Assembly: GCA_018714245.1 (NCBI GenBank)
Contig: DVNQ01000018.1
Coordinates: 1-54,067 of the forward strand
Length of the DNA: 54,067 nucleotides
Direction of reading: 5' to 3'
Source of the DNA: Candidatus Avilachnospira avicola
GTDB lineage: Bacteria; Bacillota; Clostridia; Lachnospirales; Lachnospiraceae
Part shown: one piece after another, positions 25,624 to 51,431 of the stretch
Position numbering within the stretch: the stretch's first letter is position 1
How the letters are laid out: the number at the start of each line of letters is the position of its first letter
Made by a program: the position numbers and the translations under genes
The notes under the pieces: model-generated
Databases searched by the model: none
What the model was told of the DNA's origin: nothing
What the model saw: the letters and a program-made list of their open reading frames with translations, nothing else

Positions 25624-25694
25624 GATCCCGGCACCTGGGAAAAGGCCCTTTGCCGCTTCGCGGCGGCAGACACCTTTCCCCATGTACCGGGATC
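25624..25694 (+). repeat. Palindromic element with conserved core, copy A
   Basis: GATCCCGGCACCTGGGAAAAGG-[CCCTTTGCCGCTTCGCGGCGGCAGACA]-CCTTTCCCCATGTACCGGGATC; shares its core with the elements at 30928, 49590 and 49733. Read on the minus strand it ends in TTTTTG and may terminate potD. Confidence 0.85.
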
Positions 25695-30708: not shown

Positions 30709-30890
30709 ACCCCCGCCTCCAATCTATATGCTGCCACGACGTCCCGGATCCGGAAAACGTCCTGCCGTATAGAGATACTAAACTTTTAGTTAAAAAAATC
30801 AAACAAGCTTATTATACATATTTCGAGTCACGTTGCAATACTTTTTCATGTGATTTTTGTAAATTTTTTGTATGATATATTAAACAGCCG

Positions 30891-30921
30891 GCGGGACATA
30901 CGCCGCAGGGCCCATGGCCGC
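30891..30921 (+). repeat. Tandem partial duplicate of the left half of palindromic element B
   Basis: GCGGGACATACGCCGCAGGGCCCATGGCCGC versus ACGGGACATATGGCGCAGGGCCCTTGGCCGC (27/31 identical). Confidence 0.75.
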
Positions 30922-30927
30922 AAAATA

Positions 30928-30993
30928 ACGGGACATATGGCGCAGGGCCCTTGGCCGCTTCGCGGCGGCAGACGCCCTGCGCCATATATCCCG
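30928..30993 (+). repeat. Palindromic element with conserved core, copy B
   Basis: ACGGGACATATGGCGCAGGGC-[CCTTGGCCGCTTCGCGGCGGCAGAC]-GCCCTGCGCCATATATCCCGT; arms 20/21 complementary. Confidence 0.87.
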
Positions 30994-31027
30994 TCATATC
31001 AAAGCCGTCCGCCGCGGGAGTATAATG

Positions 31028-48459: not shown

Positions 48460-49578
48460 ATGTACGAAAAAGACAGGGCATGGGTCGAGCTTGACCGCAG
48501 CAATCTGGTTCATAACATAAATGTCATCAGGAGCATCCTTCCCGAAGGATGTACGCTGATGCCCTGTGTAAAGGCAAATGCCTTCGGGCATGGGGCAGAG
48601 CTGATATCCCGGATCCTTATGGAGATCGGTATAAGGGACTACTGTGTAGCCTGCCTTACCGAAGCCATAGAACTGAGGGCAGCGGGGATAGAGGGCCAGA
48701 TCCTGATACTGGGTTATACGGCACCTGAGGACTTTCCCGCACTTATTAAATATGATCTTACCCAGACCGTGGTAGACTGCGGATATGGGCGGCTGCTCAA
48801 TGATTTCGGAAAGCCGGTCCATGTACATGTAGCCATAGATACCGGCATGCACCGCATAGGCGAAAGATGCGAACATATCGATGAGATAGCCTCCCTCTGG
48901 ACGCTTCCGAATCTTCTGATCGACGGAGTCTACACCCATCTCTGTACCTCCGACGATACCGATGAGGACAGCATAAAATTCGTCCACCAGCAGAAGGACG
49001 CCTTTGATAAGGTAATCTGTGAGCTGAGCTCAAGAGGGATCTCAGGATTCAAGGCCCATATCCAGGCCAGCTCCGGCCTCGCAAACTATCCGGATTTCAG
49101 ATATGACTATGCCCGTACCGGAGCTCTCGTATATGGAAATGAAGGAACTCCCGCCGATAAGGTGCCCGGTCGTCTCGGCCTTAAGAAGGTCCTTAGCCTG
49201 AAGGCCAGGATCAGTACCGTAAGGGATCTCCTGCCCGGAGATACCGTAAGCTACGGACGCACCTTTACCGCGGATCATGCCATGAAATGCGCTTCTTTAG
49301 GCATAGGCTATGCAGACGGGCTTCCCAAGCTTCTGTCCAACTGCTGGCATGTGCTGGTAAATGGCGTGAGCTGCCCCATGATAGGCACCATGTGCATGGA
49401 TTCCGTCATGATAGACGTAAGCTCTGTCCCTGAGGTAAAGCAGGGGGACATAGCCGTGATCATCGGAAAGAGCGGCGATCAGGAGATAAAGGCCTGTGAC
49501 CTGGCCTGGAAGACAGGTGTCAATACAAATGCGGTACTCTCCTGCCTCTCCCCCAGAGTGGCAAGGATAGTGGTCTGA
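48460..49578 (+). CDS. Alanine racemase-like PLP enzyme (VanT C-terminal domain-like)
   Basis: 372 aa; WVELDRSNLVHNINVIRS, MPCVKANAFGHG, IDTGMHRIGE, YDYARTGALVYG, PMIGTMCMDSVMIDV. Confidence 0.9.
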   Translation: MYEKDRAWVELDRSNLVHNINVIRSILPEGCTLMPCVKANAFGHGAELISRILMEIGIRDYCVACLTEAIELRAAGIEGQILILGYTAPEDFPALIKYDLTQTVVDCGYGRLLNDFGKPVHVHVAIDTGMHRIGERCEHIDEIASLWTLPNLLIDGVYTHLCTSDDTDEDSIKFVHQQKDAFDKVICELSSRGISGFKAHIQASSGLANYPDFRYDYARTGALVYGNEGTPADKVPGRLGLKKVLSLKARISTVRDLLPGDTVSYGRTFTADHAMKCASLGIGYADGLPKLLSNCWHVLVNGVSCPMIGTMCMDSVMIDVSSVPEVKQGDIAVIIGKSGDQEIKACDLAWKTGVNTNAVLSCLSPRVARIVV

Positions 49579-49589
49579 AACATACATAA

Positions 49590-49659
49590 AGCCCCGCATC
49601 CATACCGGCTCCCTTCGCTTCTTCGAAGCAGCAGATGTCGCCGGCATGCACGTGGGGCT
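49590..49659 (+). repeat. Palindromic element with conserved core, copy C (also a likely terminator of the racemase gene)
   Basis: AGCCCCGCATCCATACCGGC-[TCCCTTCGCTTCTTCGAAGCAGCAGATGTC]-GCCGGCATGCACGTGGGGCT followed by ATTTTTT. Confidence 0.85.
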
Positions 49660-49732
49660 ATTTTTTGTTTCAGCCTTAAAGCCAGGGTGAAACCTTTTTG
49701 CTGATCGATCAGCTGATAAAGAAGTAAAGGAA

Positions 49733-49794
49733 AGATCCCGATATATGCCGGGGTGTCTGCAGCCCGCAAAGGGCCCCGGCATATATCGGGATCT
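49733..49794 (-). repeat. Palindromic element with conserved core, copy D (3' of the amidohydrolase gene)
   Basis: Minus strand AGATCCCGATATATGCCGGGG-[CCCTTTGCGGGCTGCAGACA]-CCCCGGCATATATCGGGATCT; perfect 21-bp arms. Confidence 0.9.
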
Positions 49795-49823: not shown

Positions 49824-51431
49824 TTATCTTTCGTATACAAACCTTCCATCCACGATGGTGGCATCTACCTTGGTATTTATGATCTCATCCGCAGGTATGG
49901 TAAATATATCCTGGCTGAGGACTGCCATATCGGCATAATAGCCGGGCTTGATGCGGCCCTTCACATTTTCCTCAAAGCTTGCATATGCGGACTCATAGGT
50001 GTAGGCATCCACTGCATCATATATGTCCATGCACTCTCCGGGATAGAAACCGCCTGCAGGCTCTCCCTTCAGGTTCTTTCTGGTGACTGCACAGTAAAGG
50101 TTGTTGATGGCATTCATGTCCTCAACGGGGCTGTCGGTACCGAAACTCTCATGTACTCCCATCTTCCTTAAGGTCTCAAAGGCATAGCTTGTTGAAGCAA
50201 GCTCCTTTCCTACCCTGTCCTCTACCACTGTCATGTCGTAATGAAGGAATATGGGCTGTACCAGCGCCAGTATGTCGCTCTTTCTGAACCTTTCCAGCAT
50301 GGGCATGTCGGTTATCTGGCAGTGTACTATACCATGACGGAGGGGATTCTCCCCGTTCTTTATCACCTTTTCATAGGCGGTGAGCACCATATCTATCGCT
50401 CCGTCGCCTATCGCATGGACGATGGAGGTGCATCCGTTTTCGGTGGCGATCCTTACCATCTCATCCAGGCCCTCCTGGGTCATGGTGGCTATGCCCTTTG
50501 TGGAAGGATCATCATTGTAAGGCTTCCTCATGAGAGCCGTACGGGCTCCGAGGCTTCCGTCCACGAACATCTTCAGGGGTCCGATCTTTAAGAAGGCATC
50601 GCCGACTCCGGTCCTGAATCCCTCTGAAAGGAACTGTCTGAACTCAACGGGCTCAAGGAAGTTCACCTGCTGATATACACGCAGCGTAGGATTCTCCGCC
50701 TGTACCCTCTTATATGCCTCCCAGGTCTCATGCCATTTTCCGGGGCGCATGTCCATGGACTGTACCGAGGTCACGCCGCACTCAGCCGCATGGGCCATGG
50801 CCAGACGAAGCCTCTCATCCATGACCTCCTCGGTCTCAAGAGGCATGATGCAGAGTACCTGCTGGCAGGCATTTTCCCTGAGTATGCCGGTAGGCTCACC
50901 GTTTTCATCAAGGTCTATGGCGCCGCCGTCAATGGGCTTTGTGCTTCCGTTTATGCCGGCTATCTCAAGGGCCCTGCTGTTTGCTGTCAGTATGTGTCCG
51001 CAGGCTCTCTCAAGGATCAGGGGATAGTCCGGGCACATGTCATCCAGATCCTGTCTTACCAGCACTCTATTCTCATCTGTAAAATAATCCTGGTTCCATC
51101 CCATCCCGTGAAGCACGGTGCCGGGCTCCGGATGGTTCTTTTCTATGAAGGCCCTTACCCTGCGCTTGACCTCTGCGATACTGTCAGAGCCAAGGAGCTG
51201 AATGCTTGCAAGATCATTTCCCACGCTCTGAAGATGCTGATGGGAATCATTGAAGCCGGGAACCACCGTGCGTCCCTGGGCATCGTATCTCCTGGCCTCC
51301 GAAGGCGCTGCAGCCAGTATGCCTTCATTTGAACCTACTGCCTTTATGATGCCGTCCTCCACGAGCACGGCCTCTTCAAAGTGGCCTCTCTCCACATATA
51401 CCTTTGCATTATATATGACCAGTGCAGACAT
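49824..51431 (-). CDS. Amidohydrolase family protein (YtcJ-like, amidohydrolase_3)
   Basis: 535 aa; GRTVVPGFNDSHQHLQSVG, HGMGWNQDYF, FVDGSLGARTALM, VHAIGDGAIDMVLTAYE, GTDSPVEDMNAI. Confidence 0.93.
   Translation of the reverse strand: MSALVIYNAKVYVERGHFEEAVLVEDGIIKAVGSNEGILAAAPSEARRYDAQGRTVVPGFNDSHQHLQSVGNDLASIQLLGSDSIAEVKRRVRAFIEKNHPEPGTVLHGMGWNQDYFTDENRVLVRQDLDDMCPDYPLILERACGHILTANSRALEIAGINGSTKPIDGGAIDLDENGEPTGILRENACQQVLCIMPLETEEVMDERLRLAMAHAAECGVTSVQSMDMRPGKWHETWEAYKRVQAENPTLRVYQQVNFLEPVEFRQFLSEGFRTGVGDAFLKIGPLKMFVDGSLGARTALMRKPYNDDPSTKGIATMTQEGLDEMVRIATENGCTSIVHAIGDGAIDMVLTAYEKVIKNGENPLRHGIVHCQITDMPMLERFRKSDILALVQPIFLHYDMTVVEDRVGKELASTSYAFETLRKMGVHESFGTDSPVEDMNAINNLYCAVTRKNLKGEPAGGFYPGECMDIYDAVDAYTYESAYASFEENVKGRIKPGYYADMAVLSQDIFTIPADEIINTKVDATIVDGRFVYER

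Follow-up and report, generated by a model that had tools for sequence, protein, structure and literature searches.

The convergent gap between an alanine-racemase-family gene and an amidohydrolase gene in Candidatus Avilachnospira avicola is occupied by two palindromes in opposite orientation, which raises the question of whether they act as folded RNA, as transcription terminators or as mobile DNA. A first-pass annotation of the window (the whole analysed stretch of 54,067 nucleotides) had joined them with two further copies into a dispersed, unnamed family, and had offered as explanations either a terminator class with a protein- or RNA-binding loop or a REP/MITE-like element. We assign a probability of roughly 0.55 to the reading that the four elements, copies A to D, belong to a lineage-specific, duplicating palindromic repeat of REP-like mobility that acts at the DNA level and doubles as a terminator.

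Four palindromic elements in the window

All four elements were found where they had been placed, with their bounds refined (Table 1). Their common core, of the form CCCTTN-(hairpin)-NGCAGAY within arms of about 20 bp that are copy-specific yet complementary, is matched exactly by A, B and C, for which the chance expectation is 0.01 matches per window; the inner hairpin of D is reduced, as had been claimed, and its 21-bp arms are perfect. All four fold far better than shuffled sequence, with z values of -6.1, -8.1, -3.1 and -8.9 for A, B, C and D, respectively. Copy A has a strong T-tract on the - strand, its core being antisense to the end of the adjoining - strand gene; the T-tract of copy B is only weak, and that of copy C lies at 49661-49666. 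The half-copy beside B is probably a remnant of an event of the template-switch or slippage type. Rfam features of the window are confined to one T-box leader and one lysine riboswitch.

Table 1. Features of the window discussed in the text.
Feature	Position	Strand	Remarks
T-box leader RF00230	14780-15020	-	gathering-score match
Copy A, palindromic element	25624-25694	+	core 25646-25671 (+)
Half-copy beside B, duplicating part of its left half (ggcgggacatacgccgcagggcccatggccgc)	30890-30921	+	read directly in the sequence
Copy B, palindromic element	30928-30994	+	core 30948-30973 (+); follows a - strand recX-like gene
Alanine-racemase-family gene	48460-49578	+	Pfam PF01168 and PF00842; 3' end toward copy C
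Copy C, palindromic element	49590-49659	+	core 49611-49636 (+); sense to the alanine-racemase-family gene
Copy D, palindromic element, inner hairpin shortened	49733-49794	-	core 49773-49755 (-); sense to the amidohydrolase gene
Amidohydrolase gene	49824-51431	-	Pfam PF07969; 3' end toward copy D
Lysine riboswitch RF00168	52991-53163	-	gathering-score match

Family size, covariation and lineage-specific cores

A pattern search with the full core revealed 7 copies in the genome of Ca. Avilachnospira avicola itself (G000) and 25 in that of a sister species, the uncultured Lachnospiraceae bacterium BRZ_EC bin61 (G019), with none for a control pattern. With a covariance model built from 32 aligned copies, the strongly scoring loci numbered 9 for G000 and about 31 for G019; in the latter the model also found slightly variant cores (GCTTC/GAGGT on C4, GCGGAC on C47 and a strongly degenerate one on C40). 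G000 also holds a tenth, degenerate copy (L332, C30:~11164, - strand), with GACA/TGTC in place of the inner GC stem (CCTTTGACATTCTGTGTCAGCAGAT) and complementarity kept. A loose pattern, CCCTTN{8,30}GCAGAY, was rejected as a source of extra copies: it gave 104 matches in G000 versus 11 controls, of which only those whose arms are complementary (with a duplex energy below about -22, which defines real copies here) stand apart, and the surplus probably reflects base and codon composition. A minimal motif, CWTYGC..GCRGCAG, tried as common to 348 family genomes, was too degenerate to give a usable signal.

The element is laid out as an A-tract, a variable arm, GGG, CCCTTY-GCCTC-nnn-GAGGC-RGCAGACA, CCC, a variable arm and a T-tract, so that an apical core of 19-26 nt (CCCTTY, a small hairpin and RGCAGACA) is closed by inverted arms of ~20 bp. 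The position just beyond the inner stem is C.A, T.G, T.T or G.G, a standard pair being rare. The compensatory changes first noticed in the inner hairpin hold across the family (CCGC/GCGG, CTTC/GAAG, CCTC/GAGG, CATC/GATG and CCCC/GGGG), and all 11 of the 11 outer-helix pairs are changed on both sides somewhere. The core is nearly uniform while the arms diverge; the full conservation of CCCTT and GCAGA in the alignment is partly by construction, as both formed part of the search pattern. The arms had been described as free to vary, and their paired substitutions agree with this, but they are not wholly free, since sub-groups of copies share them (three G019 copies with ctccggccgtata.atcggg and five with ccccattttatatcaaggg).

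In the 32 copies the covariation score is 0.476, far above the 0.142 +/- 0.013 of shuffled alignments, none of 500 shuffles being as high, and above that of slid-structure controls (<=0.161). The earlier proposal of selection on a folded molecule is not established by this: the covariation is real, but selection does not follow from it, as template switching at quasi-palindromes also gives perfect arms. Left halves are duplicated in tandem at B and at G019 C9 (19312-19446), C20, C4 and C79, and the half-copies at B and G019 C9 appear to be template-switch-type events. Such events offer a selection-free route to covarying arms, and therefore covariation alone is no proof of a functional fold.

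The CCCTT-core repeat is lineage-specific, being found in only two species of one genus. The covariance model detected no convincing copy in the remaining 23 genus genomes and nothing convincing in other families of the order; among 387 family genomes from 334 genera, a strong score was obtained in G000 only, a single further match being marginal (E 5e-4). When 84,980 species were scanned for the exact core, only G019 had real copies, the remaining matches being due to chance and devoid of arms, and the sole viral match to the exact core lacks arms as well. No Rfam family corresponds to the repeat at curated score, and everything that the permissive mode returned, against microRNA and other eukaryotic models, was below threshold. 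The description as a dispersed, unnamed family thus stands, with further copies in the same genome and in one relative.

At the site orthologous to C/D, G008 carries two hairpins with a different core, GGACATYGC-nnn-GCRGCAGTCC, of which this genome has more than 20 copies. At E up to 0.01 a model of this core gave 48 matches in G008 and 31 in G009, with some palindromes counted on both strands; the rest of the genus had none, apart from one transferred or mis-binned copy in G000 (L361, C6:7590-7650). The latter was rejected as a conserved copy, because the whole 231-bp region with the G008-type hairpin is 96% identical in L361, L377 (G009) and L406 (G008), far above what is usual among the three species, which points to recent transfer or a mis-binned contig. 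Most G009 copies represent a third version, GGCCTTGC-GAA-GCAGACAGCC, which has CTT, a GC hairpin and AGACA in common with the G000 core. Judged from their sequences, the three versions seem to follow one design in which each lineage has its own apex, and their common descent is likely. A long hairpin downstream of thrS (GCCTTTTAACTTACCTCACTTTTTCAAAACTCGGAAACC...GGTTTCC...AATAAGGC), present at the same site in G017, G021 and G005 (L277, L278 and L279), may be a different repeat.

Gene ends, traces of movement and strand orientation

Almost every copy lies 20-100 bp past a stop codon, and convergent gaps often contain two copies arranged head to head, about 130-170 bp core to core, as at C/D and at G019 C9, C10 (twice) and C16. 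A stable hairpin followed by a T-rich tract past a stop codon is what defines intrinsic terminators in sequence, and most copies look like two-way intrinsic terminators, so that the terminator-like character suggested at first is retained. In copies whose core is antisense to the preceding gene, the antisense strand has the stronger T-tract (means of 5.5 vs 4.1); the arms and tracts therefore look like the terminator, the direction of the core being incidental.

Flanks of the copies are about 77-88% identical between G000 and G019, and G019 counterparts exist for C/D, A, the C30 pair, C103a and the ThrS-end copy. Copy A corresponds to G019 C14:28414, with its orientation unchanged, and copies C and D to G019 C16:3858 (-) and C16:3705 (+), respectively. 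Within orthologous arms, 16 pairs have changed on both sides and are still paired, 4 have changed on one side and are still paired, and 8 are broken. With six or seven copies orthologous between the two species, much of the family has been inherited vertically.

Traces of duplication are found as well. A 240-bp unit of two hairpins and a spacer occurs twice in G019 (C10:659-899 and C10:8668-8907), the two being 94% identical with unrelated flanks, and copies with the same arms recur at unrelated sites. Three sites are unoccupied in a sister species: the G019 C8 copy, which follows a gene with an MGS domain (methylglyoxal-synthase-like), is absent at G000 C37 with synteny on both sides, and two G008 copies are absent in G009 (L207/L348 and L200/L338), one of them lying upstream of a native terminator that both G008 and G009 have kept. 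Occupied and empty sites differ by 110-160 bp, which is more than the hairpin length, no clear target-site duplication was seen at the compared sites, and the differences could include loss in the other species. The duplicated pair unit, the recurring arms and the empty sites give substance to the REP/MITE-like character that had been considered.

The domain Y1_Tnp (PF01797) is absent from G000, G019, G008 and G009, which are incomplete metagenome assemblies (86-95% complete), whereas 13 of the 27 genomes searched alongside have a match over the cut-off. A RAYT was considered as the mobiliser and rejected, none being found in the four carrier genomes, and the genes adjoining the copies contain no consistent mobiliser candidate. 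PDDEXK_2-type 'transposase' (Rpn-like) genes adjoin three same-arm copies of G019 (L146 on C4, L225 on C20 and L224 on C79), with a Pfam match at the cut-off in L224 and a weak one in L225. They were not accepted as the mobiliser; two of the cases (C4/C79) represent duplication of a gene plus its terminator.

The copies could instead be ordinary terminators, whose apex spreads by gene conversion, template switching and segmental duplication with neither a dedicated mobiliser nor a function of its own. The left-half tandem duplications, the gene-plus-hairpin duplication at C4/C79 and the lack of a detected transposase fit this explanation, which we nevertheless regard as rather doubtful, since same-arm copies have different flanks and the 240-bp non-coding unit has moved between gene contexts; moreover, a native terminator persists beside a G008 insertion, and it is the core that stays nearly uniform while the arms diverge.

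A conserved loop and covarying stems are by themselves no evidence for an RNA motif, and strand orientation should be checked first. In co-directional contexts the core of the CCCTT family is sense in 8 copies and antisense in 10 (P = 0.81), and the consistent orientation expected of a strand-specific 3' UTR RNA motif was thus not found in this family. At site A the core is antisense in both species and intact, and in the C30/C9 pair of G000 and G019 the second hairpin has been inverted in place between collinear flanks; a possible second flipped ortholog, G000 C30:11164, was left out of the counts because its arms could not be aligned. The binding of a protein or RNA to an RNA loop, one of the options offered in the first-pass annotation, is not supported as the main function by these observations. 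More broadly, an RNA-level element, in which terminators with an apical internal loop (CTTY/RGCAGA) are bound by a protein or small RNA and provide 3'-end stability or common regulation, appears unlikely: it would account for the gene-end location with T-tracts and for covarying stems around a conserved unpaired core, but not for the antisense copies, and neither a functional theme common to the genes adjoining the copies nor a wide distribution was found, copies having been gained or lost between sister species. The co-directional copies of the G008 GGACAT family are sense in 7 of 7 cases (P = 0.016), in keeping with a role as RNA in this sub-family.

Known repeat systems and a possible copying mechanism

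Like intrinsic (Rho-independent) terminators, the DNA-level repeat that we favour has a GC-rich hairpin preceded by an A-tract and followed by a T-tract past stop codons, but it differs from them in its common non-palindromic apical core, in its multi-copy homologs and in a core that is often antisense to the terminated gene. MITEs and the short mobile repeats of Firmicutes (bcr1, BOX) are short, non-coding, interspersed and mobile-looking, as is the present family, which, unlike MITEs, has no conserved terminal inverted repeats common to all copies (the arms differ between sub-groups) and no clear target duplication. In uptake-signal terminators the repeated word forms the arms, whereas in the present family it is the apex that is repeated, between variable arms. 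The likeness is that of dispersed repeats doubling as terminators, which DNA uptake signal repeats are reported to form (PMC1852404).

The closest behaviour is that of REP, REPIN and BIME sequences, which are small gene-end palindromes in tens of copies, with head-to-head dimers, species-specific versions and putative non-autonomous mobility; the present repeat is likewise multi-copy, extragenic, mostly at gene 3' ends and arranged in head-to-head dimers. The hallmark of REPs is an unpaired GTAG or CGTC tag at one hairpin end, the CGTC super-family is also without a dedicated transposase, and neither super-family is listed for the host phylum (PMC3733652). Neither tag occurs on either strand in any of the 32 aligned cores, in which the inner hairpin is flanked by CCCTTY and RGCAGACA and the whole is set within ~20-bp copy-variable arms. 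With neither of two defining features, the tag and the RAYT, found, we do not file the repeat as a REP despite its REP-like behaviour. That the copies are true REP elements, whose RAYT has since disappeared or escaped detection because the assemblies are incomplete, is highly improbable: the family resembles REP/REPIN populations in copy number, in its placement at gene ends, in head-to-head pairing and in having species-specific versions (PMC3733652 and PMC3116915), but the tags are lacking, Y1_Tnp is found in nearly half of the searched genomes and in none of the four carriers, and long variable arms outside a tagged hairpin are foreign to REPs.

For the lineage-specific mobile repeat, one could propose that the arms, together with the A- and T-tracts beside them, act as intrinsic terminators in both directions, so that gene ends would be tolerant landing sites. 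The core would be what is recognised during copying, on folded single-stranded DNA or a cruciform, and its direction relative to transcription would then be irrelevant. Arm covariation would probably be kept by terminator selection together with template-switch repair between the arms. A more specific version, which we put forward only tentatively, is that these are orphan self-spreading palindromes in a single genus of Lachnospiraceae, which an enzyme other than an IS200/IS605-type HUH transposase copies as folded single strands or cruciforms, with lineage cores (CCCTT..GCAGACA, GGCCTT..AGACAGCC and GGACAT..GCAGTCC) changed in concert across copies and with arms serving as host terminators.

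Essentially the only short palindromic repeats whose mobiliser is known are REPs, with their RAYTs. REP-like habits without a RAYT, together with lineage versions of one design, point to another hairpin-copying route or to spread by repair alone, and the differences in occupied sites between sister species make the question of copying testable.

Segments between same-arm copies in G019 (6.4 kb on C17 and 3.4 kb on C3) were considered as composite transposons and rejected, since on reading they contain ordinary genes and no transposase; they were treated as recombination or neighbouring terminators. The 6.4-kb segment (C17:7513-13968, L222) carries genes that read as surE-like and ABC transporter genes. 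G000 lacks these genes and has a single copy of the repeat at this place (L161, C103:13048), and the comparison of the two loci suggests that gene content has changed here, the breakpoint lying at the repeat.
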